Shown: positions 29,187-41,498 of the stretch, piece by piece | How the letters are laid out: the number at the start of each line of letters is the position of its first letter | Numbering within the stretch: the first letter of the stretch is position 1 | Source of the DNA: Pseudomonadota bacterium | GTDB taxonomy: Bacteria; Pseudomonadota; Alphaproteobacteria; Acetobacterales; Acetobacteraceae | NCBI GenBank assembly: GCA_021826225.1 | Contig: JAKBAV010000002.1 | Coordinates: 1-64,000, forward strand | Direction: 5' to 3' | DNA: 64,000 nucleotides | Position numbers and translations under genes: made by a program | The notes under the pieces: model-generated | Told to the model about the DNA's origin: nothing | The model's input: only the letters and a program-made list of their open reading frames with translations | The model's database searches: none

Positions 29187-30398
29187 TTAATCGGCGCTGG
29201 AGTTCGCGGTAATTATGCCGGTTTCAGGCGTCACCTTGGCGCCGGGCCAGGCGCGCATCAGCCCGTTGATGACGATTTTGTCGCCCGGGCCGATGCCGCT
29301 ATCGATCTCGCGCAACCCGTTCACCAGTGCGCCCGTGGTCACGATTTTCGGCACCACAGTGCCATCCGGCGCCACCGTCATCAGCTCCTGGTTGGACTGA
29401 TCGGCCTGCAGCGCGCTATCGGGCACCAGCAGCACCTGGCGCGGTGCCGCGATGGGCAGGCGGAGCTGCGCGAACGCCCCCGGGGTGATGAACAGATCCG
29501 GATTGGCGAAGGTGGCGCGCGCATGGATCGTGCCACTGCCTGGGTCGATCTCGTTATCGATGAAATTCAGCGTGCCCTGGCGCGGAAACCCGCTCTCATC
29601 GCTCAAGCCCGCCTGCACGGTATCGTTCACGGGGGCGCCCGGCGTCGCGCCGTGTACGTAATGTTCATAGGCCAGGTAATCATCCTCGCTCATCTGGAAA
29701 TCGAGATAGATGGGATCGAGCGAGACCAGCGTGGTGAGCAGCGTGGAGCTGGCGGCATTCGGCCCGCCCATCACCAGCCCGCCTATGGACATGAGATGCG
29801 TGCTGATGCGCCCGGTAAAGGGCGCGGTTACATGGCAGAATTGCAGGTTGAGCTCGGCCGCCGCCACCTGCGCCTGCGCCTGGTCCAGCGCCGCCTGCGC
29901 CGCGGCAAGCTGCTGCACGCCCTGGTCGAACTGCTCCACCGTGCCGGCGCCATTATTCTTCAGCACACTGAAGCGGTGCGTCTGCTTCGCTGCATAGGCA
30001 AGCTGCGCCTGGGCCGACAGCATGGCCGCCTTGGCCTCTTCGAGCTGAATCTGATACGGACGCGGATCGATAACGAAGAGCAGATCACCCTTGTGCACGA
30101 TCTGGCCGTCGGTGAAATCGATCGCCGTGAGATAGCCGCTCACCTGGGCGCGGATCTGCACGCTGTCCACCGGCGAAAACTGCCCGGTGAAGCGCGCCCA
30201 GTCGGCCGTGCGGGTGGTCAGCGCCGTGCTCACGGTAACGGCGGGCGGCAGCGGTGGCGGCAGGCTCGCCTGCGCCCCGGGCCAGAAGCGGGTGGAAACA
30301 GCGGCCAGCAGCCCGGCCGCGGCGAGGCCGCCGAGCACGAGCCAGATGCCGCGCCGGTGGGAGCGGGAAACAGAAAAGCGCGACGTGATATCGGACAT
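29187..30398 (-). CDS. RND efflux pump periplasmic adaptor (AcrA/MexA type)
   Basis: 403 residues. One N-terminal membrane segment (GIWLVLGGLAAAGLLAAVST) is followed by the lipoyl/barrel-sandwich half SVQIRAQVSGYLTAIDFTDG, a helical hairpin rich in Ala and Gln (about 110-170), and the second half CHVTAPFTGRISTHLMSIGG. The order is that of membrane fusion proteins that join the RND transporter to an outer-membrane channel. First gene of the two-gene pump operon, divergent from a TetR gene; the intervening 349 bases carry palindromic operator candidates. Confidence 0.94.
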   Translation of the reverse strand: MSDITSRFSVSRSHRRGIWLVLGGLAAAGLLAAVSTRFWPGAQASLPPPLPPAVTVSTALTTRTADWARFTGQFSPVDSVQIRAQVSGYLTAIDFTDGQIVHKGDLLFVIDPRPYQIQLEEAKAAMLSAQAQLAYAAKQTHRFSVLKNNGAGTVEQFDQGVQQLAAAQAALDQAQAQVAAAELNLQFCHVTAPFTGRISTHLMSIGGLVMGGPNAASSTLLTTLVSLDPIYLDFQMSEDDYLAYEHYVHGATPGAPVNDTVQAGLSDESGFPRQGTLNFIDNEIDPGSGTIHARATFANPDLFITPGAFAQLRLPIAAPRQVLLVPDSALQADQSNQELMTVAPDGTVVPKIVTTGALVNGLREIDSGIGPGDKIVINGLMRAWPGAKVTPETGIITANSSAD

Positions 30399-30493
30399 AT
30401 GGTCAACCCAGACAGGCGGTTACGACAAAACCAGAACGGCAGCTCGGCACACGCCGCCGCTTCCGCGCATGCAACGCCGGCGGCACAGCGCAA

Positions 30494-30515
30494 TTATGTA
30501 TCGGACACTACATAA
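30494..30515. promoter_or_regulatory. AcrR-like operator candidate upstream of the RND operon
   Basis: TTATGTA (30494-30500) and TACATAA (30509-30515) are perfect inverted arms around eight bases, about 95 bases upstream of the adaptor gene. The TACAT arms recall the E. coli AcrR operator upstream of acrAB. Binding by the divergent TetR protein is inference. The gap 30399-30747 holds no gene. Confidence 0.5.
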
Positions 30516-30654
30516 ATAACGCGATCATCCCGCCCTGCAAGGGGGTGGCGGGGCAGAGCACCGATATTTTTGCTGGGCTGCACAAAAACCGGCATTATCC
30601 CGGTATTGAATCCGCCGCGCGTCCGCGCCCGGAAGTTTGCCGCCACGCGAGAAT

Positions 30655-30700
30655 TTGACTATAAGGAGGATGTCTCCGTTTTTATACGGAGGATTTCTCC
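30655..30700 (+). promoter_or_regulatory. tetR promoter region with two palindromic repeats
   Basis: TTGACT (30655-30660) could be a -35 box. Two copies of a palindrome-like word follow: GGAGGATGTCTCC (30665-30677) and GGAGGATTTCTCC (30688-30700), 23 bases apart, one on each side of the AT-rich TTTTTATA that may serve as the -10. The spacing from -35 to -10 is long (19-20). The layout suits autorepression by the TetR protein. Confidence 0.45.
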
Positions 30701-30747
30701 GCTTAGCAAGGGGCGTTTATCAGGCGTTTCGCAAAAGGGCACTGCTC

Positions 30748-31350
30748 ATGGCCGGCCAAGCCTTACCCTCCGCCGCCCACCCACCGCGCAAACCGCGCGC
30801 CGATGCCACGCGCAACCATGAGCGGCTGCTGGAAACGGCCAAAACCGTGTTCGCCGAAAAAGGCCCGGCCGCCAGCCTGGATGAAATCGCCAAGGCCGCC
30901 GGGGTTGGCATCGGCACGCTGTACCGGCATTTCCCGACGCGCGATGCCCTGGTGGAGCAAGTCTACCGCCATGAGACCACGCAGCTGGCTGAGGCGGCGG
31001 AGCGGCTTCGCGCCAGCCATCCGCCGGTCGAGGCGCTGCGGCAATGGCTGTTCCTGTTCGTCGAGTATTTCACCACCAAGCAGATCATGGCCCAGGCGCT
31101 GAGCGCGACGGCCGGCGGCACGGCAACACTTTATGCCATTTCCTCGGTGCTGCTCAACAATGCTGTCAGCACCTTGGCGGAGCAGGCGGTGGCGCGCGGC
31201 GAAATCCGCCTGACGTTGGAGCCGATGGATCTGCTCCGCGCCATTGCCGGGGTCGGCAATGTTAGCCCGGGGCGGGACTGGGAGGAACGCGCCAAGCGGC
31301 TGGTGGATATTCTCATCGCCGGGCTGCGCGTGCCCCAGGCGGGCGGGTAA
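30748..31350 (+). CDS. TetR family regulator, probable repressor of the RND pump
   Basis: 200 residues. The helix-turn-helix domain is at about 20-65: RNHERLLETAKTVFAEKGPA, then ASLDEIAKAAGVGIGTLYRHFPTRDALVE given here as SLDEIAKAAGVGIGTLYRHF. The C-terminal half is the ligand-binding helical domain. The start ATG at 30748 follows AAAAGGG at eight bases; an upstream ATG at 30637 would run through the operator-like repeats and is unlikely. It is divergent from the pump operon, the usual place of a local repressor. It converges on the decarboxylase gene. Confidence 0.9.
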   Translation: MAGQALPSAAHPPRKPRADATRNHERLLETAKTVFAEKGPAASLDEIAKAAGVGIGTLYRHFPTRDALVEQVYRHETTQLAEAAERLRASHPPVEALRQWLFLFVEYFTTKQIMAQALSATAGGTATLYAISSVLLNNAVSTLAEQAVARGEIRLTLEPMDLLRAIAGVGNVSPGRDWEERAKRLVDILIAGLRVPQAGG

Positions 31351-31356
31351 GCGGCT

Positions 31357-33639
31357 TCAGAACCGCAGGCCGTGATACGCGCCATCGACCAGCTCGATGC
31401 CATGCGTGTCCGGCGCGAAGGCCGGGAAGCGCTTGCCGAATTCCTGCAACGCCGCGAGATAGGTGAGCATGGGCCCATCCGCCGGCCCGAATCCCTCGCC
31501 GGGCATGATGAGCGGAATGCCCGGCGGATAGGGCACGATGGCGGTGGCCGCACAGCCATCGCCCAATTCCGCCAGCCCCGCCGCCACGCCCTGGCCGCGC
31601 ACCAGCATGTCATGCGCGGCGGCCGGGATCATTTCCGGCTGGGGCAGAAAATTATAGGCCTGCTGTAGCAATTCAGGGATTCGCGCATCCCGCATGGCGT
31701 CGAACATCGCCTGCGCCAGCTCACGCAGGCCGAGCCCGCCGAATGCCGCCGGGTCTTTCTGCACCAGGGCCGGCATGGTGCGGGCCAGGGCGGCGTTACC
31801 ATCGTAATCACGCTTGAAATCGAGCAGCGCGTTGACCAGCGAGCCCCATTTCACCCGCGTCACGCCGATGGAGAACAGGAACAGCACCGAAAAATTCGTG
31901 GTTTTTTCGGCGATGACGCCGTGCTCGGCGAGGTAGGCGGTGAGCAGCGGCGCCGGAATTCCGGTTTGTGCCAGCCCGCCGGTGCGGTTGATGCCGGGTG
32001 TGGCGATCGTCACCTTCAGCGGGTCGAGCATGCAATAGCCCGGCTCCAGCGCGGGAAAGCCATGCCATGCCGCGCCGGGCTCCAGCATCCAGCATTTTTG
32101 GTCCGCCGCCAGCAAGGCGGGGGGCGCCTCGGCGAAATCCAGGATGGTGCCGCCATCGGCCACCGCATCCGGCTGCCACACGGTAAAAAACCAGTCGTCG
32201 CGCGCGGAAAAATCCGCTTGCAGCCGCGCCATGGTCTGACGGAAGGAAATCGCCTCCGCAATGGCCTCCCCGGTGAGCCGCCGCCCACCCGCCCCTTCCA
32301 TCATCGCCGCGCTTACATCATTGGAAGCAATGATGGCGTATTGCGGCGAGGTCGAGGCGTGCATCATGTAGGATTCGTTGAAGCGCGCATGCTCGGTTTT
32401 CGCGCGCCCCTCGCGCAGATGGATCATCGAGGCCTGGCTGAGGGCAGCAAGCAGCTTATGCGTGGACTGGGTCGCGAACACCGTGGGGGCATCAGCGCGC
32501 GGCGCCACCGGATCACCGCGCATCGCGAAGCGGCCGGCATAGAGCGGGTTGAACCTGGCATGACCGAACCAGGCTTCGTCAAACAGCAGACGGTCGACGG
32601 AAGCGCCGAGCCAGTCCTCGGCCTGGGCGGCGTTGATGCACAGCCCGTCATAGGTCGCGTTGGTGATGATGGCGAGCGCCGGTTTCTCCCGGTTGCCGGC
32701 GGCAAGCGGCGATTGCGCGATCGCCGCGGCAATGGCCTCGGGCCGCAAGGCCGCCGGGGGAATCGGGCCGATGAGCCCCAGATGATTGCGGTGCGCCCGC
32801 AGATATACTGGCACGGCGCCGGTCAGGCACAGCCCATGCTCGACCGATTTATGGCAGTTGCGATCCGCCAGCACGATCTGCCCGCGCGCCACGCAGGCAT
32901 TCATCACCACGCGGTTGGATGTGGACGTACCATTGGTCACATAATAGGTGCGGTCGGCGCCGAATACATGCGCGGCATAGCGCTCGCTGGCGCCGATCGG
33001 CCCGCTATGGTCGAGCAGCGAGCCGAGCGCGCCGACCGAAATGGAAAGATCGGCGCCGAAGACCGGGGCGCCGAAATAATCATGGAACATCCGCCCGACC
33101 GGTGAGCGCAGAAAGCCGGCCCCGCCCATATGCCCCGGCGTGTGCCAGGAATAGGCGGCCTCACGCGTGAATTTTTCCAGCGCGGCGAAAAGCGGCGGCA
33201 ACAGCGCCTCGCGGTAGCGGCACATCGCGGCGCGGATGCGCCCGCTCGCGGCGGCCGTCGTTTCCTCAAGCAGCCAGATGAAGCCCTCGGCATCGCGCAG
33301 CACCGCAACCGGCACCGGCGCGCCGTCATGCCGTTTAGCGAGCAGAAACACCGGCATGCCGGCATTCCGGGCGCGAATCGCCTCGGCCAAAGCGATGGCG
33401 GGGGCATGCCCGGCATCCTCGTCCATATCCCAGTCGACCAGTATGGCCTGCAGATGCGGCTCGGACTCGACCACCGCCAGGGCCTCTACCGCACCCGCCG
33501 CCGTTACCAGCTCGATATACTGACGCTTGAGCTCCTGCAGCAGGTCGCGCGCCGCGCGGGCGGAGTCGGCATCCTCATGCAGCCGGCCGCTCACCACCAG
33601 AATGCGCGTGCCAGGCGGCACCGGCTTTTGCTCCTGCAT
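31357..33639 (-). CDS. Orn/Lys/Arg decarboxylase (PLP-dependent, biodegradative type)
   Basis: 760 residues, the size of the large acid-inducible arginine, lysine and ornithine decarboxylases. It has an N-terminal response-receiver-like wing domain (RILVVSGRLHEDADSARAAR), the PLP domain with YYVTNGTSTSNRVVM and SWHTPGHMGGAGFL, and the PLP lysine in ATQSTHKLLAALSQASM. The reaction consumes a proton and yields a polyamine plus CO2, which raises cytoplasmic pH, so a role in acid resistance fits an acidophile. The amino acid substrate cannot be read from the sequence, and no antiporter gene is next to it. ATG at 33639. Confidence 0.92.
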   Translation of the reverse strand: MQEQKPVPPGTRILVVSGRLHEDADSARAARDLLQELKRQYIELVTAAGAVEALAVVESEPHLQAILVDWDMDEDAGHAPAIALAEAIRARNAGMPVFLLAKRHDGAPVPVAVLRDAEGFIWLLEETTAAASGRIRAAMCRYREALLPPLFAALEKFTREAAYSWHTPGHMGGAGFLRSPVGRMFHDYFGAPVFGADLSISVGALGSLLDHSGPIGASERYAAHVFGADRTYYVTNGTSTSNRVVMNACVARGQIVLADRNCHKSVEHGLCLTGAVPVYLRAHRNHLGLIGPIPPAALRPEAIAAAIAQSPLAAGNREKPALAIITNATYDGLCINAAQAEDWLGASVDRLLFDEAWFGHARFNPLYAGRFAMRGDPVAPRADAPTVFATQSTHKLLAALSQASMIHLREGRAKTEHARFNESYMMHASTSPQYAIIASNDVSAAMMEGAGGRRLTGEAIAEAISFRQTMARLQADFSARDDWFFTVWQPDAVADGGTILDFAEAPPALLAADQKCWMLEPGAAWHGFPALEPGYCMLDPLKVTIATPGINRTGGLAQTGIPAPLLTAYLAEHGVIAEKTTNFSVLFLFSIGVTRVKWGSLVNALLDFKRDYDGNAALARTMPALVQKDPAAFGGLGLRELAQAMFDAMRDARIPELLQQAYNFLPQPEMIPAAAHDMLVRGQGVAAGLAELGDGCAATAIVPYPPGIPLIMPGEGFGPADGPMLTYLAALQEFGKRFPAFAPDTHGIELVDGAYHGLRF

Positions 33640-33706
33640 TACAGTGTCCTTAACACGAGCCGGCCGCCCTTCTCAACCAAGGGAGGAGCGGCCAGTTTTA
33701 CGCCAG

Positions 33707-33734
33707 CCGGTCCCGCATCCGCATGCGGGACCGG
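33707..33734. other. Perfect 12-bp hairpin in a divergent promoter region
   Basis: CCGGTCCCGCAT (33707-33718), a 4-base loop, and the exact complement (33723-33734). It lies between the decarboxylase start and the ABC-phosphatase fusion start, which diverge. It may be an operator or an mRNA leader structure for either gene. Confidence 0.5.
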
Positions 33735-33815
33735 CCCCGGCGCTTTAATCGGTGATTTGCCTGTATCGCGGCGTGTTTACGGTTGCTTAGACGCAGATTT
33801 TAACGGCAAAATAGC

Positions 33816-36437
33816 TTGATGTTCACTATTTTCGGGGCGCACAATACCTTGACCCAAGAGATTATGTTTTTGTTTGCCGCCCTGGCCGTCTTCATGCTGG
33901 GCATCGTAGCCCTCGCGGTCGATGTGGTCCGCCGCAACCAGCGCCGGAGAGAGGCCGAGAACCGGCCGATCGACACATCCATCTTCCAGCAGAGCGCCAA
34001 GGAGAGCTTTGACCCGCCGGAACCGGGTGACGCCGAGGCAAAAACCATGGAGGATGCCGCAGCCGAGCCCGCGGAAATTGAGGAAGTCGTAGCCGAAGAA
34101 GCTGGAGCAGAGGAAGCTGGAGCAGAGCCAGCCGCGCGGGAGCCCGCGCCGGAAGCGACGGAAGCCATGCCGGATGACGAGGCACCCGCTTTGCCGATCG
34201 AGGCGGATGCCTTTGCAGTGCTCACGGTTGAAGCCCCTGCGTTTGAAGTACACGAGTTAGAAATATACGCGTTAGAAGCGCATGCGTTTGAGGAGCAGCC
34301 GTCTGACGTAGCACCTGTGGAAGAACAGGGCACGGAACCGGCGCCCGTGGCCGCGGAAGACGCGGCTTATGAGGAAAACGCGGCTTGTGACCCGGAAATC
34401 ATCGCCCATGAACAGCCTTTGCCCGCCGCGCCGGAACCTCTGCCCGAAGCCGTGGCACTTCCGGCGGACGTGGCTGAAGCGGATCTTCGCGCGCCGCCCG
34501 CCGTGCAGGACGAGGCCCTGATCCCCGAAGCCCTGATTCCCGAAGCCCTGGTCCTCGAAGCCCTGGTCCTCGAAGCCATGCAGGCCGAGGAGACGCCGGA
34601 ATGGGCGGCCGAGGCCACATTTGAAGCCATGCCGGCGGCTGCCACGGAAGCGGTGGCGGCGCCCGGCACGGCGGATGAGGTTTTTGCCCAGGAGCCCGCC
34701 ACCGCATGGGAGCAGCCCGCGCCGGAACCCGTGCCGGTGCTCATCTGCACCCGGTTTGGCGCCGGTTTCGGCGACAAGACCGTGCTGTCCGGCGTCGATT
34801 TCACGGTGCTCGACCAGGGCATCACCACGATCATGGGCCCCGTCGGCACTGGCAAATCGACCCTGCTGCGCGCCCTGGCCGGCATGCTGCACCAAAGTGG
34901 ATTGTTCAAAAGCTGGGGCGATGCCTGGTTCAACGGCGCGCCGCTGGGCGCGGATAACCGCCCGCTTCTGGTCGCCCAGCGCATCCAGCTTATCCGGCGT
35001 TCCGCGCTCGACAATCTCGCTTTCCATCTGCAGACGGCCAGCCTCTCCCCCGCCGCCTTGTCCGACTGGGCGGCCCAGTGGCTGAGCCAGGCCGGCGCGG
35101 CGCAAATTATACCCCAGCTCGACCGCCCCTTCCTGGAGCTGGACCAGCTCTCCCAGCGCATCGTCACCATTCTGCGCGAGGCCGCGGCCGAACCGGCGCT
35201 GCTGATGATCGACGAGCCGACCCACGGCCTGCCGGAGGCAGATGCCACCGTGCTGCTGAACCTGCTGCAGCGCCTGGCCAGCTTCACGCCCCTGCTGGTG
35301 GTGCTGCAGAACCATAAACATGCCATGCGGATTTCCCACCAGGTCATCCTGCTGGCCGGAGGCCAGGTCCTGGCTTCCTGCGACGCCGGAGCGTTTTTCA
35401 ACAACCCGCCCAATGCCATGGTGGCGCAGTTTATCGCCACCGGCGCCTGCGCCGTGCCCGCGGCTGATGCCGCCATGGAGCCAGCGGCGGAGGCCGCCAT
35501 GGGACCAGCGGCGGATGCCGCCAGCGAAGCAGCGGCGGATGTCACTACCCCTGAGGCAACGCCGGAGGCCGCCATCGAACCACCCCCGGAGGCCGAGCCT
35601 CCTGCCCTCACGGCCGATTCGCTGGCCGCGATCAAGGATGAAATCCGCAACAGGCTGGCCGCCGAAATAGAGCCCGCGCCCGAGATGCAGTTCGCCGGAC
35701 CGGAGCTGATCGAGCTGGAGCCCGTCAACGCCTCGGAGGTGGTGCTGAACCTGTCGCCGGCCATGCCTGATTTCATCGAAGCCGATACCGGGGACGAAAT
35801 CACCCTGAGCCGGCATATGGTCATATCGGCCCCGCTGCCGCCGCGCGCCGCCGCCGCGCAGATGGCCTCACTGGCCCCGGCTACCCAGCAAAACAGCGAG
35901 CAGGAAGCCGCCATCCGCTACCCCGCCGGCACCGGCCCGCGCGGCTTTGTCTGGATCGAGGATGGCCGGCTGGCGGCCACACCGATGCCGGGCATCGCCG
36001 GCCCGGCCGATGACGATCTCGAACTGCTGAAAAACACTGGCGTGACCGTGCTCATCACCCTGACCGAGCAGGATTTCTCGCAGGATGTACTGGCCCGGCA
36101 CGGGCTGCGTAACCTGCATTTCCCCATTGCCGACCGCACCGCCCCGACCACGGGCGAGACCGACATGCTGGTGAACCAGATGCGCGACATGCTTGATAAT
36201 GGCGAGGTTCTCGCCGTGCATTGCCTGGCCGGGCTCGGCCGCACCGGCACCATCCTCGCCGCCTATATGGTGAAGGAAAAAGGCGTCTCGGCCCAGGTGG
36301 CGCTGAACCAGATCCGCCGCTTCAACCGGCAATTCGTGCAGACCGACGACCAGGAGGATTTCCTCATGGAATACGAAGTGCAGCAGGAGCAGACCGTGCT
36401 GCGCAACCGCGCCGCCGGCGGCGGCAACCCGGCCTGA
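33816..36437 (+). CDS. Fusion protein: membrane anchor, degenerate ABC ATPase and dual-specificity phosphatase
   Basis: 873 residues. A single hydrophobic helix lies at about 14-38 (IMFLFAALAVFMLGIVALAV), followed by a 260-residue Glu/Ala/Pro-rich linker with short repeats. An ABC ATPase domain spans about 308-525: Walker A GPVGTGKST near 341, a Q-loop-like VAQRIQLIRR, Walker B LLMIDEP near 462 and an H-loop histidine in LQNHKHAM. The signature LSGGQ is not there; the aligned place reads LDQLSQR. A second Ala/Pro-rich linker leads to a protein phosphatase domain (about 700-860) with the P-loop HCLAGLGRTGT near 801 and a likely general acid in FPIADRTAP. This combination is not one I know. ATG at 33816. 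Confidence 0.85.
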   Translation: MMFTIFGAHNTLTQEIMFLFAALAVFMLGIVALAVDVVRRNQRRREAENRPIDTSIFQQSAKESFDPPEPGDAEAKTMEDAAAEPAEIEEVVAEEAGAEEAGAEPAAREPAPEATEAMPDDEAPALPIEADAFAVLTVEAPAFEVHELEIYALEAHAFEEQPSDVAPVEEQGTEPAPVAAEDAAYEENAACDPEIIAHEQPLPAAPEPLPEAVALPADVAEADLRAPPAVQDEALIPEALIPEALVLEALVLEAMQAEETPEWAAEATFEAMPAAATEAVAAPGTADEVFAQEPATAWEQPAPEPVPVLICTRFGAGFGDKTVLSGVDFTVLDQGITTIMGPVGTGKSTLLRALAGMLHQSGLFKSWGDAWFNGAPLGADNRPLLVAQRIQLIRRSALDNLAFHLQTASLSPAALSDWAAQWLSQAGAAQIIPQLDRPFLELDQLSQRIVTILREAAAEPALLMIDEPTHGLPEADATVLLNLLQRLASFTPLLVVLQNHKHAMRISHQVILLAGGQVLASCDAGAFFNNPPNAMVAQFIATGACAVPAADAAMEPAAEAAMGPAADAASEAAADVTTPEATPEAAIEPPPEAEPPALTADSLAAIKDEIRNRLAAEIEPAPEMQFAGPELIELEPVNASEVVLNLSPAMPDFIEADTGDEITLSRHMVISAPLPPRAAAAQMASLAPATQQNSEQEAAIRYPAGTGPRGFVWIEDGRLAATPMPGIAGPADDDLELLKNTGVTVLITLTEQDFSQDVLARHGLRNLHFPIADRTAPTTGETDMLVNQMRDMLDNGEVLAVHCLAGLGRTGTILAAYMVKEKGVSAQVALNQIRRFNRQFVQTDDQEDFLMEYEVQQEQTVLRNRAAGGGNPA
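34515..34574 (+). repeat. Four in-frame 15-bp tandem repeats
   Basis: Units of the form GCCCTG(A/G)T(C/T)C(C/T)CGAA encode EALIP/EALVL in the linker of the fusion protein. Copies 3 and 4 are identical, so the array is recent or unstable and may vary in length between strains. Confidence 0.75.
35466..35537 (+). repeat. Three in-frame 24-bp tandem repeats
   Basis: Units starting at 35466, 35490 and 35514 encode D/E-A-A-x-x-x-A-A in the second linker of the fusion protein, just after the ABC domain. The copies have diverged at several positions. Confidence 0.7.
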
Positions 36438-36449
36438 ACCGCGCGTTCC

Positions 36450-36737
36450 TCAGGGCATATTCCTGACGGCCAGAATGGTCACTTTATGCCGCAGCGAGAG
36501 GTTGGTGATGCGGTCGACACTGCCGCCGTAATGGCAGACCAGCAGGCGCTGGAGCGGCAGCCAGGTTTCCGCGGCTACGGTGTAGCGCCCCGGATAGACG
36601 CGGTAGACATACCCCGCCGTGATGGTCAGAATCGCCCCCGAACTGTCCCGCACCTGGCTCATGAAACACGGCCCCGCAAGAGCCGGCGGCGCGGCAAAAA
36701 GGGCCAGCAAGGCGGCCAGACCAAAATATTTTCTCAT
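36450..36737 (-). CDS. Small secreted protein, unknown function
   Basis: 95 residues with a clear signal peptide (MRKYFGLAALLALFAAPPALA, written as MRKYFGLAALLALF then AAPPALA), so the mature part is about 74 residues and periplasmic. It has two cysteines (GPCFM and LVCHYGG) that may form a disulfide. I do not recognise the family. The ATG at 36737 has a GGGAG site seven bases upstream. It converges on the ABC-phosphatase fusion gene, with only 12 bases between stops, and shares no obvious context with the FUSC operon to its other side. Confidence 0.65.
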   Translation of the reverse strand: MRKYFGLAALLALFAAPPALAGPCFMSQVRDSSGAILTITAGYVYRVYPGRYTVAAETWLPLQRLLVCHYGGSVDRITNLSLRHKVTILAVRNMP

Positions 36738-36854
36738 CTCCGTTCTCCCTTGAGCGCAACCCAACGCCGGACAAGACACTCCCGCCGGGCCTGGGGTTGA
36801 GCTTATATAGGATGCGCCGCCTATGGCGCGGGCGCCATATGGCGCGGCTTATGC

Positions 36855-36921
36855 GGGAGCCGTCCGGCTTAGGTTGCTTGGGAGCCGTCCGGCTCCGGTT
36901 GCTTGGGAGCCGTCCGGCTCC
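36855..36921. repeat. Tandem hairpin-forming repeats upstream of the FUSC operon
   Basis: Two 25-bp units (36855-36879, 36880-36904) and a third partial one (36905-36921). Each contains GGAGCC-GTCC-GGCTCC, an inverted repeat (the first copy ends GGCTTA instead). They could be operator sites or leader hairpins of the FUSC gene. Confidence 0.7.
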
Positions 36922-36985
36922 GGGGCAATTCAGGCATGACAAAATCCGTCTGGCGCGGCGGGGCATATTTCTGCTTTGCAGTATC

Positions 36986-38989
36986 ATGATCGCTGCCATG
37001 CCCAAGCCGGATGAGTGGCTGTTCGCGCTGAAAACCTTCGCGGGTGCGATGGCGGCGCTCTACATCGCGCTCTGGCTCGGGCTCGACAACCCGTACTGGG
37101 CCATGGCCACCGCTTTCATCGTGGCGCAGCCTTTCGCGGGCGCGATGCGCTCGAAAGCCCTGTACCGCTTCTGCGGCACGCTCATCGGCGGTATCGCGGC
37201 GGTGGTGATGGTGCCTAATCTGGTCAACGCGCCGGTGCTGCTGAGTCTCGCCATGGCGCTGTGGATCGGGCTCTGTCTCTACATCGCCCTGCTCGACCGC
37301 AGCCCGCGCTCCTACACCTTCATGCTGGCGGGCTATACCGCCGGCATTATCGGCTTTCCCTCGGTCGCCAATCCGGGTGACATCTTCAACACGGCTTTAA
37401 CCCGCGTCGAGGAAATCTCCATCGGCATCGCCTGCACCACGATGGTCGGCACGCTCATCTTCCCGCGCCCGCTCGGCCCGGTCCTGGCGGCGCGCATCGG
37501 CACCTGGGTGGCGCCCGCGCGGGACTGGGCAGTGGCCGCCCTGGCGGGCGAGGAGGAATCGGCCCAGGCCCAGGCGGCACGGCGTCGCCTCGCCTTCGAG
37601 GCAACGGATGCGGCGATGATGATCTCACAACTGGCCTATGACACCTCGCATCTGCAAATGGCGGTGCCCTTCCTCACGCGGCTGCGCGTCTATGTCATCA
37701 GCCTGATGCCGGTGCTGAGCTCCATCGGCGACCGCGTGATGCAGTTGCGGCGCCTGGGCGGCATAACCACGGATCTGCAATCCGTCCTCACCGACATCGC
37801 GGCCTGGATGCATGAAGGCGGGCCGGAGGATGCCGGACCGCTGCTCGGCCGGATCGCCGCCATCGAGGAGCGGGAACATGGCTGGGCCGGGCTGCTGCGC
37901 GCCTCGCTTTGCGTGCGGCTGGAGGAGCTGGTGCGCATCGTACAACATTCGCGCGCCATCCGCCGGCATGTGGTGGATGGCGACCGGCCGCCGGCGAGCC
38001 CGCTGCGGGAGGCCGAATTCGTCGCGGTGATGGCCGAAACGCATGACCATAAGCTGGCCTTGCTCTCCGCGCTCTCGGCCGGAATCGCGCTGCTGGTATT
38101 ATGCGTGTTCTGGATCGAAGCCGGCTGGTCCTACGGCGCGGGAGCTGCCGTCATCGCCGCCGTCGCCTGCTCGTTTTTCGCAGCACAGGACGATCCGGCC
38201 CCGGCGATCGCGCTCATGCTGCGCAATGCGCTCATCGTCACCGTCGGGGTCGGGGTGTATGATTTCGCGGTGTTGCCCCTGGTGACGGGTTTCGACGAAT
38301 TATGCCTGGTGCTGCTGCCGGCCGGGCTCATCATCGGCGTGCTCATCTCGCGCCCCGCCACTTTCGGCACTGGCATGCTGCTGGGTGCCATCGGCTCTAC
38401 TCAGCTCGGGCTCGACAACGTGTACCGCGCCAGTTTCAGCGCTTTCGCCAATGGCACCGTGGCGCTCATCATCGGGCTTGGCAGCGCGCTGGTGGTGACG
38501 AAAATGATCCGCTCCGTGGGCGCCGCCTGGAGTGCCGAGCGCCTGCAGCGCGCCAACTGGCGGGATGTGGCGCTGGCGGCGGGCGCCGCGCATGATCGCG
38601 CGACGCTGACCGGGCTGATGATGGACCGGCTGGGGCTGATGATGCCGCGCATGGCGGCGGTGGCGCGCGGGGCGGATGAAGCGGCCGCCGGCGCCTTGCA
38701 GGATTTGCGCGTGGGGTTGAACATGGTGGCGCTGCACCGCGAGCAATCGCTCCTGCCGCCGGCGGCGCGCCACGCCAATGAGGCGGTGTTCGCTGGGGTG
38801 GCGGCGCATTATGGCGGCAATGCAAGGGCGCCCGCACCGGAAACGCTGCGCGGCGCGATCGATGCCGCCATCGCCACGCTCATCGCCAACCCACGCGCCT
38901 ATAAGGAGACCCTCATGGTGCTGTCCGGCCTACGCCTCGTGCTGTTTCCGGCCTGCCAGCCGCCCGCATATTTCGGCGAGGCGGCATGA
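36986..38989 (+). CDS. FUSC family inner-membrane efflux protein (AaeB-like)
   Basis: About 667 residues with two blocks of hydrophobic helices (about 10-170 and 365-520) around cytoplasmic helical parts, the FUSC/AaeB layout. The start contains WLFALKTFAGAMAALYIALW and NPYWAMATAFIVAQPFAG, family signatures. Such proteins export aromatic carboxylic acids or similar weak acids together with a HlyD-type adaptor. ATG at 36986 or 36998; no strong ribosome site is visible, so the start is uncertain. It overlaps the DUF1656 gene by four bases. The nearby catabolic island suggests that aromatic or hydrophobic acids could be the cargo, which is inference. Confidence 0.9.
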   Translation: MIAAMPKPDEWLFALKTFAGAMAALYIALWLGLDNPYWAMATAFIVAQPFAGAMRSKALYRFCGTLIGGIAAVVMVPNLVNAPVLLSLAMALWIGLCLYIALLDRSPRSYTFMLAGYTAGIIGFPSVANPGDIFNTALTRVEEISIGIACTTMVGTLIFPRPLGPVLAARIGTWVAPARDWAVAALAGEEESAQAQAARRRLAFEATDAAMMISQLAYDTSHLQMAVPFLTRLRVYVISLMPVLSSIGDRVMQLRRLGGITTDLQSVLTDIAAWMHEGGPEDAGPLLGRIAAIEEREHGWAGLLRASLCVRLEELVRIVQHSRAIRRHVVDGDRPPASPLREAEFVAVMAETHDHKLALLSALSAGIALLVLCVFWIEAGWSYGAGAAVIAAVACSFFAAQDDPAPAIALMLRNALIVTVGVGVYDFAVLPLVTGFDELCLVLLPAGLIIGVLISRPATFGTGMLLGAIGSTQLGLDNVYRASFSAFANGTVALIIGLGSALVVTKMIRSVGAAWSAERLQRANWRDVALAAGAAHDRATLTGLMMDRLGLMMPRMAAVARGADEAAAGALQDLRVGLNMVALHREQSLLPPAARHANEAVFAGVAAHYGGNARAPAPETLRGAIDAAIATLIANPRAYKETLMVLSGLRLVLFPACQPPAYFGEAA

Positions 38990-39192
38990 TCGGCGAGGTC
39001 AATCTGTTCGGCGTGCTGCTGCCGCCGCTGCTGGTATGGGCCGGGCTGGCGCTGCTGCTCTCGGCCGGTCTGCGCCGGGTTTTCGCCCGCGCCGGGCTTT
39101 ACCGCTATATCTGGCACCGCCCACTTTTCGATTTTTCGCTGCTCATCATTCTCACCGGGCTGGTCAGCCTGGTCATGACGCGGCTTTTCTGA
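38986..39192 (+). CDS. DUF1656 small membrane protein (AaeX-like)
   Basis: 68 residues with two membrane segments: LFGVLLPPLLVWAGLALLLS and LFDFSLLIILTGLVSLVM. It has the family start MIGEVNLFGVLLPP and an RYIWHRPLF motif. DUF1656 proteins are the small third partner in AaeXAB-type aromatic acid exporters; their job is unknown. It overlaps the FUSC gene (ATGA) and precedes the adaptor gene by seven bases. Confidence 0.92.
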   Translation: MIGEVNLFGVLLPPLLVWAGLALLLSAGLRRVFARAGLYRYIWHRPLFDFSLLIILTGLVSLVMTRLF

Positions 39193-39199
39193 GGACTTC

Positions 39200-40072
39200 A
39201 TGAACAACGCATCCTTCATCACCCGTTTCCTGGCGACCCTGGCGGCTCTCGCCGTCGCCGCCATCGTCGCCTGGCAGCTCTGGGATTACTACATGGAGGC
39301 GCCCTGGACCCGCGACGGCCGGGTGCGCGCCGATATCGTGGCGCTGGCGCCTGATGTCAGCGGCCCGGTGGTGCAGGTTTTCGTGCATGACAACGAGCCG
39401 GTGAAAGCCGGCGATGCGCTGTTCCAGATCGACCCGGCGCGCTTCACCCTGGCCCAGGCCCAGGCCCTGGCCGCGGCGGCCAGCGCGCATGCCGCCATGG
39501 AGGATGCCAAGCATACCGCCGCGCGCTATGCCGCGCTCTCCACCAGTGCCGCCTCGGCGCAGACGCGCGAAACCTCCTCGGCCCAGGCGCTGGAAGCCGA
39601 GGCACAGTACCAGAAGGCGCAGGCCGATCTCGGCGTGGCTCAATTGAACCTGGCGCGCAGCACGGTGCGGGCGACGGTGAACGGGGTGGTCACGAATTTC
39701 TCGATGCAGCCCGGCGATTATGTGAATGCCGGGACCGCCGTGGTGGCGATCGTGGATACCGATTCGATGTATGTGGATGGCTATTTCGAGGAGACCAAGC
39801 TGCGCGGCATCGCCCCGGGTGATGCCGCGACGGTGACGCTGCTGCAAGGCGGCCCGGCGATCAAGGGCCATGTCACGGGGCTGGCGGCGGGCATCGCCGA
39901 TGCCGAGCGCCTCGCCGCCCCGACGCTGCTGGCCGATGTGACGCCGACCTTCACCTGGGTGCGCCTCGCGGCGCGCGTGCCGGTGCGGATCGCGCTCGAT
40001 CATGTGCCGCCGGGCGTGAAGCTGGTGGCCGGGATGACCTGCACGGTCTCGATCAGGCCGAACACCCGATGA
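39200..40072 (+). CDS. HlyD/AaeA-type efflux adaptor
   Basis: 290 residues. One N-terminal membrane helix (LATLAALAVAAIVAWQLWDYY) is followed by the short barrel-sandwich motif DGRVRADIVALAPDVSGPV and VFVHDNEPVKAGDALFQIDP, then an Ala-rich helical hairpin and the second half VRATVNGVVTNFSMQPGDYV. This is the periplasmic adaptor of a FUSC exporter. The start ATG at 39200 follows GAGGAC. Its stop overlaps the DoxX-like gene (ATGA). Confidence 0.92.
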   Translation: MNNASFITRFLATLAALAVAAIVAWQLWDYYMEAPWTRDGRVRADIVALAPDVSGPVVQVFVHDNEPVKAGDALFQIDPARFTLAQAQALAAAASAHAAMEDAKHTAARYAALSTSAASAQTRETSSAQALEAEAQYQKAQADLGVAQLNLARSTVRATVNGVVTNFSMQPGDYVNAGTAVVAIVDTDSMYVDGYFEETKLRGIAPGDAATVTLLQGGPAIKGHVTGLAAGIADAERLAAPTLLADVTPTFTWVRLAARVPVRIALDHVPPGVKLVAGMTCTVSIRPNTR

Positions 40073-40443
40073 ACCAGATGCTCCGGCGTCTGACCCTCGG
40101 CTTTGTCTTCCTGTGGTTTTTCATCGGCGGCATCGCGCATTTCGCCTTCACCGGAACCGAAATGAGCATCGTGCCGCCCTATCTGCCGCATCACCGCGCG
40201 CTGGTGCTGCTCAGCGGCGTGTTTGAACTGTTCGGCGCCGCCGGAATTCTGTTCCGGCCGACGCGCGCAATGGCGGGGTGGGGCCTGGTACTCCTGACCA
40301 TAGCCGTCACCCCCGCCAATATATTCATGTGGCAGCACGCGGCGGATTACCCCCACATCCCCTATTGGGCACTCACCCTGCGCCTGCCGGCCCAAGCCGT
40401 GCTGCTGCTCGGCATCTGGTGGTCGACACGGCCGGCGGATTAA
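40069..40443 (+). CDS. DoxX family membrane protein
   Basis: 124 residues with four hydrophobic segments, for instance LGFVFLWFFIGGIAHFAF and ALVLLSGVFELFGAAGILF, the DoxX pattern. DoxX proteins are small integral membrane proteins of unclear role, linked to redox and quinone chemistry in some bacteria. It is the last gene of the FUSC operon by overlap. Its stop overlaps that of the convergent reductase gene by three bases. Confidence 0.8.
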   Translation: MNQMLRRLTLGFVFLWFFIGGIAHFAFTGTEMSIVPPYLPHHRALVLLSGVFELFGAAGILFRPTRAMAGWGLVLLTIAVTPANIFMWQHAADYPHIPYWALTLRLPAQAVLLLGIWWSTRPAD

Positions 40444-41498
40444 CCCCGCCGCACCAAACCGTGCGGCTGCACGACGCCCAGATCCAGATGGGTAACCACG
40501 CCCGGTTTCGCGTCGCAGACCTGCGGCACCACCGTGGCCCCGACAATGCCGGTCCAGGGCAGGCCATGGAAGGGGTTGCGGCCATCCGCGTCCGGCGCCC
40601 CCATGAGATGGCAGACGAGCGGCGGCTCGCCCTTGATATTCACGCTGTAGCGCGCATCGCCGATTTCCCAGAGCGGGTCGAGATCGGTGCCGAGCTGCCA
40701 GTAGAAATGATACACGATCAGCGGCGCGCCCTCGACCCAGGCGGTCCATTCATAATGCTGGCCGCCCACCATGCCCTTTTTCACCACGCCATGCGGATGC
40801 ACGATGTCGTTTTTGGCGCGTGAGACCTCAAGCCGGCTGGTGACGTTTTCGATCTCCTTGCCGAGGCCATGCGCGATCATCTCCATGGAGGAGTAGAAAT
40901 ACTTCCACGTATCCGGCGCGCGCCGCGGATTGGCGAGCAGCTCCTCGGGGTCGGCGCCGAAACCCATGATTTCAGTGTAGATCATCGGGTTACGCAGCTT
41001 GTCGATGACCTCGGTGACCTCGATACAGTCGATCCGCGTCATCAGCCGCGCCAGGGTGAGCGGCAGAATATCGCCCGCGAAGCCCGGATGGATGCCGCAG
41101 CCATGATAGGAAACGCCGCCCGCCTTGCATGCCGCCTCGATCCGCGCGGCCTGTTCGGGGAAATATTTGTTCGGCAGGAACGGGCCGGCCGGCGAGATCA
41201 CGTTCTTGCCCGATTCCAGCAGGCGGCAGACGAGGTCCAGCGTGGAGGCCGCCATGTTGAGCGGGGCGAACAGCACGCAATCCGCCTCAAGCGCCATGAT
41301 CGCCTCGACATCATCGGTCGCGAACACGCCGGTTTTTGGCAGGCCCGCGATATCGCCCGCATCCTTGCCGACCTTTTCCGGGTTTGTGACGTAGACGCCG
41401 ACGAGTTCAAGCTCCGGATTTTGGATGAAATGCCGCAGCGCCGCCTTGCCGACAGTGCCGGTGGCCCATTGGATTACTCGATAGTTTTTTGTTGTCAT
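40440..41498 (-). CDS. DapB-fold NAD(P)H-dependent reductase (amine dehydrogenase-like family)
   Basis: 352 residues. It starts YRVIQWATGTVGKAALRHFI, a dinucleotide-binding loop (GTVG) of the dihydrodipicolinate-reductase/2,4-diaminopentanoate dehydrogenase group. A catalytic-domain stretch GVSYHGCGIHPGFAGDILPL is typical of this group, which is often found in lipid and steroid catabolic regions. The true substrate is unknown; it is not the housekeeping DapB, which is shorter. It lies downstream of an SDR gene on the same strand, 31 bases apart, so the two are probably one operon. Confidence 0.8.
   Translation of the reverse strand: MTTKNYRVIQWATGTVGKAALRHFIQNPELELVGVYVTNPEKVGKDAGDIAGLPKTGVFATDDVEAIMALEADCVLFAPLNMAASTLDLVCRLLESGKNVISPAGPFLPNKYFPEQAARIEAACKAGGVSYHGCGIHPGFAGDILPLTLARLMTRIDCIEVTEVIDKLRNPMIYTEIMGFGADPEELLANPRRAPDTWKYFYSSMEMIAHGLGKEIENVTSRLEVSRAKNDIVHPHGVVKKGMVGGQHYEWTAWVEGAPLIVYHFYWQLGTDLDPLWEIGDARYSVNIKGEPPLVCHLMGAPDADGRNPFHGLPWTGIVGATVVPQVCDAKPGVVTHLDLGVVQPHGLVRRG

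Follow-up and report, generated by a model that had tools for sequence, protein, structure and literature searches.

What does an ABC ATPase domain do when it shares one polypeptide with a dual-specificity phosphatase (DSP) domain? The question is raised by a gene in the window, by which we mean the whole 64,000-nucleotide stretch of DNA analysed here, taken from an Acidocella MAG of 2.59 Mb in 161 contigs (87% complete). Two things have to be settled before a role can be discussed: whether the pairing is real and kept by selection, and how much of each domain's active site is left.

Layout of the window protein

The protein is encoded by a single open frame that ends at 36437 and starts either at a TTG (33816; 873 residues) or at an ATG (33819; 872 residues). 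An ATG stands at the place equivalent to 33819 in three relatives (L041, L042 and L043); residues are counted here from this ATG, and the gene for the anchored ABC–DSP fusion is given as 33819..36437 (+ strand, as are all features of the protein below). Hydropathy predicts a single transmembrane helix at residues ~15–36 (33861..33926), with a 19-residue Kyte–Doolittle maximum of 2.81 from residue 15. Basic residues and a juxtamembrane motif, RPIDTSIF, come next, the RPID of which is kept in 9 of 11 alignment rows; since the basic stretch follows the helix, the C-terminal part is predicted to be cytosolic. Linker 1, rich in Ala, Pro and Glu, spans residues 57–305 (33987..34733) and is highly variable in length among relatives. 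The first-pass annotation of this DNA had described it as an acidic linker of 260 residues, and it is indeed acidic (net charge –60), but the length we measured is 249 residues.

A degenerate ABC domain (residues 306–542; 34734..35444) follows, recognised by PF00005, the PstB model and trees as kin of TupC-like and PstB-type ATPases. It is joined by an acidic linker 2 of about 158 residues (residues 543–700; 35445..35918; net charge –22) to the DSP domain (residues 701–872; 35919..36434), which was assigned from Pfam and structure matches. Inside linker 2 lies a conserved inter-domain segment, LTADSLAAIKDEIRNRLA (from residue 597; 35607..35660), recognisable in all 11 alignment rows, with an insertion in that of L047. 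This segment is probably helical, as it is drawn in a low-confidence model; the structure model of the window protein, built from a three-row alignment, has a mean pLDDT of 48.6.

That two genes were joined by an assembly or sequencing error is ruled out by the intact single frame found in 11 separate genomes. The same one-frame architecture in 11 genomes, together with dN/dS of 0.08–0.30 inside both domains (pairwise Nei–Gojobori estimates without a tree, for six pairs), makes the frame no chance occurrence. The fusion is thus genuine, and the single frame with one N-terminal membrane helix, as first described, is borne out.

In the C-terminal domain several DSP/PTP Pfam families score above cut-off, the best being PF22785, PF22784 and PF00782 (54.9 bits for the last, with a cut-off of 33.5). 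The phosphatase P-loop HCLAGLGRTGT that had been read from the sequence lies, by motif alignment, at residue 801 (36219..36251) with Cys802 and Arg808, and has the form HCX5R[ST]. Upstream of it, alignment points to Asp772 in IADRTAP as the candidate general acid, a role which we take from family knowledge. Among solved structures the best matches are 25xa and 2img, and DUSP23 is one of the solved DSPs matched. The CX5R loop and the general-acid Asp are shared with DUSP23-like, PTP-SAK and Tc-R-P DSPs (PF00782, PF22784, PF22785); unlike these, the window domain is the C-terminal part of a membrane-tethered ABC fusion. Seven other DSPs compared show 30–34% identity to the fusion DSP. We also noticed that long open frames in L191 and L079 (589 and 460 aa stop to stop) end in other DSP domains.

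The ABC domain matches ABC_tran (PF00005) at 45 bits, with a cut-off of 25, and its best NCBIfam model is PstB (TIGR00972), at 90.2 bits and below the curated cut-off of 343.2. Its motifs were aligned with those of four TupC-like, three PstB-type and two amino-acid-type ABC ATPases, where "TupC-like" is our label (the permease beside two such rows matches the TupB model below cut-off), the GlnQ label for L002 is above its cut-off and the HisP label is our own. Walker A GPVGTGKST at residue 340 (34836..34862) and Walker B LLMIDEP at residue 461 (35199..35219) are intact, and LDQLSQR stands in place of an LSGGQ-type signature at residue 441 (35139..35159), all as the first-pass annotation had it; the Q-loop Gln is retained as well. 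The claim of an intact H-loop, however, does not agree with the alignment to the nine ABC ATPases: in VLQNHKHA (35301..35324) the position is taken by Gln497 in place of His, and window VVLQNHKHA aligns with IVTHNMQQA. The D-loop Asp is also gone, Walker B being followed by HGLP, not SALD. LSGGQ was found in no member compared (13 Acidocella and three outside); the signature reads LS[TP]VQQR in G890 and G993 and takes other forms in G896 and in Acidocella.

Distribution and descent of the ABC–DSP fusions

Our surveys sampled part of each taxonomic rank, and the carrier counts are minima. At E ≤ 1e-20 the fusion matches 13 of 38 Acidocella genomes and has no match in the other 25. Eleven of the matches are complete one-frame fusions; in another, G163, contig ends interrupt the gene, and in G154 the ABC part stands alone, with no DSP-profile match at 1e-12 in its genome. 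The family-level sample gave 4 matching genomes among 150, the window's included: three Acidocella and G104, whose match is an ordinary ABC ATPase. The DSP profile alone matched 13 of 395 genomes in the order sample at E ≤ 1e-12 (eight Acidocella, five weak DSPs of other genera) and 7 of 385 in the class sample (the window's and six weak ones). With the full profile, at least 8 of 385 class genomes match at E ≤ 1e-27, the seven non-window matches being to the ABC part only, and at least 20 of 398 phylum genomes match (the window's, 16 with the ABC part only and three with ABC–DSP fusions); these two surveys scored the two best first-look candidates per genome, so fusions may be missed.

The idea that the fusion is restricted to Acidocella was dropped on finding these ABC–DSP fusions outside the class, in 3 of the 398 phylum genomes (G890, G993 and G896), which, from their neighbours, presumably belong to Burkholderiales and Lysobacterales. 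Initially the domain order had been thought to lack a described precedent. None was found in the open-licence literature searched on the protein or its domains, as far as that literature was accessible, but the order is not unique to this organism. The outside loci (L194, L195 and L196, from two other phylum genera) have the same ABC-then-DSP order and the same domain clades, with a small partner gene, described below, downstream in all three. They differ from the window in lacking both a strongly hydrophobic N-terminal helix and a long linker 1, and in keeping both the H-loop His and the partner. Their N-terminal hydropathy maximum is only 1.20–1.67; the helix is strong in all 11 complete Acidocella fusions (1.94–3.12).

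Mobile elements were also searched. Five phage records gave weak DSP matches. The ABC–DSP part matches 4162 plasmid records, none above 80% of the query, and the match is to the ABC part only in 15 of 15 among the matches listed. The L194 fusion has no plasmid match at E 1e-30, and viral contigs, queried with this fusion only, gave 19 pattern matches and no relative.

A tree branch with support 100/99 separates the family's 15 ABC domains from 14 other ABC rows, and in one tree the family is sister to the TupC-like rows (95/87); scores against the family profile overlap between TupC-like (100–127 bits) and PstB-type rows (80–103 bits). The DSP domains of 14 fusions likewise group in a single clade (100/100), apart from seven other DSPs, those of ten tried that yielded a row. 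With each domain in a single clade, one fusion event is indicated. The window protein has ABC then DSP in one frame, with both domains inside the family clades. The ABC domain of G154 clusters with those of the Acidocella fusions (87/78); probably, then, this genome has lost its DSP. In a pstB tree of 30 Acidocella genomes (without eight genomes, among them the carriers G166 and G178, plus G154) the 10 fusion carriers cluster, 3 changes being needed versus 8.6 in shuffles. ABC–DSP fusions are apparently a conserved and undescribed family. From TupC-like and PstB-type importer ATPases, with which the window domain shares fold family, Walker A, Walker B and Q-loop, the family is set apart by its altered signature and D-loop, by the fused phosphatase and by a permease partner that was not found; the window clade has in addition lost the H-loop, and Acidocella fusions have a membrane helix of their own.

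The small partner gene and the H-loop histidine

Directly downstream of the fusion, on the same strand and ~35–125 bases away, nine loci (six Acidocella and all three outside) carry a gene for a protein of 133–137 residues, which we call the partner. It lies on the minus strand in L040:5989-6399, L045:6083-6493, L046:5967-6377, L194:7745-8146 and L195:8299-8700, and on the plus strand in L048:3889-4299, L049:6145-6555, L050:795-1205 and L196:9720-10124. Homologues occur in 7 of 38 Acidocella genomes, all seven of them fusion carriers, and in one (G167) they are non-adjacent to the fusion only. At E 0.001 no partner match was found in the window genome (G000) or in the four fusion carriers closest to it (G172, G173, G165 and G166), an absence to be read with the completeness of G000 (87%) and G166 (82%) in mind. 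The window gene has a different downstream neighbour, on the opposite strand, for a small predicted secreted protein without Pfam match (36450-36779, –). Relatives of this protein adjoin the fusion in L041 and L042, and similar genes were seen by eye in L047 and L014; neighbours in relatives were named partly by search and the rest by eye.

The partner family has eight invariant positions in 14 rows and no Pfam match. The residue pattern gave an impression of Roadblock/LC7, which is unsupported: there is no such Pfam match, and hhalign returned 0.09% and 0.15% against seven Acidocella Robl_LC7 rows. It gave 13.6% with one L195 sequence, which itself has no Pfam match above cut-off. The partner profile found nothing below E 0.14 in the PDB, and a single-sequence model has a pLDDT of 43. 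Homologues with 36–38% identity are found on five Ruegeria plasmids. In two megaplasmid stretches (L197:1705-12396 and L198:742-10396) the homologue sits amid four dynamin-family genes and two unknown genes, in a cluster that ends with a Ser/Thr protein kinase gene, and no ABC–DSP fusion was seen in the stretches viewed. This cluster hints at a phosphorylation context for the partner homologue; the open-licence literature searched holds no description of the partner context. In L061 a partner paralogue is flanked by genes for an Lrp/AsnC-type regulator and a pyridine nucleotide-disulphide oxidoreductase, and L060 looks alike by eye.

Presence of the partner coincides with the state of the H-loop. 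The position is His in 10/10 fusion genomes with a partner homologue (seven Acidocella, three outside) and Gln in 6/6 without one (G000, G172, G173, G165, G166 and G154). The split is perfect, yet it represents about two losses, in the window clade and in G154, and not 16 independent cases. Changes go further in G165 and G166, where Walker A Lys is replaced by Arg, the catalytic Cys by Ser and the general-acid Asp by Glu. In the double-pseudoenzyme fusions, L043:5080-7407 (–) and L044:6917-9313 (–), Walker A reads GPANSGRST and the phosphatase loop HSHASLGRTG. Comparison of the two gives a dN/dS of 0.13 for the ABC and 0.115 for the DSP domain, versus 0.34 and 0.26 for the linkers. Because both active sites are changed and dN/dS is nevertheless low, the function in L043 and L044 has to be non-catalytic in part, an argument for a scaffolding role in addition to catalysis.

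A series of this kind may also be read as decay, the window lineage having lost its partner and the ATPase cycle, with the gene heading to a pseudoenzyme and little phosphatase signalling left. Loss does look stepwise, from five genomes without partner and H-loop His to the three substitutions of G165 and G166; G154 has no DSP, and the 25 Acidocella genomes without a match could be counted on the same side. We nevertheless consider decay unlikely for the window protein. It has kept Cys802, Arg808, Asp772, Walker A and Walker B in an intact frame of 872 codons, and it is constrained, since dN/dS between window and L041 is 0.27 for the ABC and 0.13 for the DSP domain.

What the ABC domain may do for the phosphatase

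ABC domains with roles other than transport occur in DNA repair and translation. Our preferred reading, which we regard as an even call judging from sequence, is that the ABC domain here gives a membrane-tethered DSP a platform for nucleotide binding or docking and is not a transporter subunit. A single helix and a long, flexible, acidic tether would keep the DSP-type phosphatase at the inner membrane. Between anchor and enzyme would sit the ABC domain, which would have descended from importer ATPases of the TupC-like/PstB group and left transport. In the wider family this domain and the small downstream-encoded protein would probably make up a platform that responds to nucleotide and either positions the phosphatase or gates it, and hydrolysis may take part in the partner-bearing relatives. 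In the window lineage, where partner gene and H-loop His are both absent, it probably does not. There nucleotide binding by the ABC domain is possible, and the domain most likely combines predicted ATP binding (Walker A, Walker B and Q-loop Gln being kept) with little hydrolysis and most likely acts as a static module for docking or dimerisation. Since the window phosphatase has kept Cys, Arg and the candidate Asp, we expect it to act on phosphorylated proteins close to the membrane.

A more far-reaching version can be offered tentatively, as a possibility on the doubtful side. It supposes a two-gene phosphatase switch, in which an ABC ATPase domain outside transport and the partner would gate the fused phosphatase; Acidocella would have tethered the switch to the membrane, and in the window lineage partner and hydrolysis would have disappeared together, so that what is left would be a nucleotide sensor or a pseudo-ATPase. 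If true, it would define a class of ABC-controlled protein phosphatases. Nature provides a series, from fusions with partner and intact H-loop, through those with neither, to double pseudoenzymes that are apparently still constrained. This series makes it testable which part of the protein is the output and whether the ABC domain can regulate the phosphatase.

The platform reading has to be weighed against one in which an ABC permease of the tungstate or phosphate type is still the docking site of the ABC domain and the phosphatase regulates that importer, the whole protein being a regulatory transporter subunit. Descent suggests this, the nearest relatives of the domain being TupC-like and PstB-type ATPases, and so does the Q-loop with the residues next to it, VAQRIQLIRRSALDN in the fusion, which resembles VFQRPVLLRRSALAN of the TupC-like rows. 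A PstB above the curated cut-off is present in the window genome (G000:C83), and three relatives (G152, G068 and G177) have an ordinary ABC ATPase gene at a distance of 5.5–7 kb from the fusion, that of G152 being nearest to HisP, below its cut-off. Against these observations, no ABC permease was found among the nine neighbour proteins in window positions 29187–41498, which are an Orn/Lys/Arg decarboxylase, a TetR regulator, two HlyD-type adaptors, FUSC, DUF1656, a dehydrogenase-like gene product and two proteins without Pfam match. A TupB-like permease query of the genus gave weak matches only (8 of 38 genomes, best E 4.7e-9, 24–32% identity), and with nothing stronger than this an orphan tungstate importer using the fusion as its ATPase is unsupported. 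The PstB model matches 37 of 38 Acidocella genomes at E 1e-60, whether or not they carry the fusion, which is therefore dispensable for phosphate import. LSGGQ is absent, and H-loop and D-loop are lost in the window protein. Taken together, docking on a permease appears distinctly unlikely.

The first-pass annotation had proposed a regulatory switch in place of a transporter. Its non-transport part agrees with the platform reading, there being no LSGGQ and no permease nearby. A full nucleotide-driven cycle, in which ATP binding would close an ABC dimer that turns the tethered phosphatase on or off, with hydrolysis as part of the cycle, fits the kept Walker A, Walker B and Q-loop Gln and the H-loop His of partner-bearing relatives, but is improbable in the window protein because signature, D-loop Asp and H-loop His are all gone, and because ABC dN/dS is still 0.13 in two relatives with a changed Walker A Lys. 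A reading as a defence system was also set aside: the four PADLOC families that match all do so on the ABC domain, the best being mad8 (E 4.5e-8, residues 319–491).
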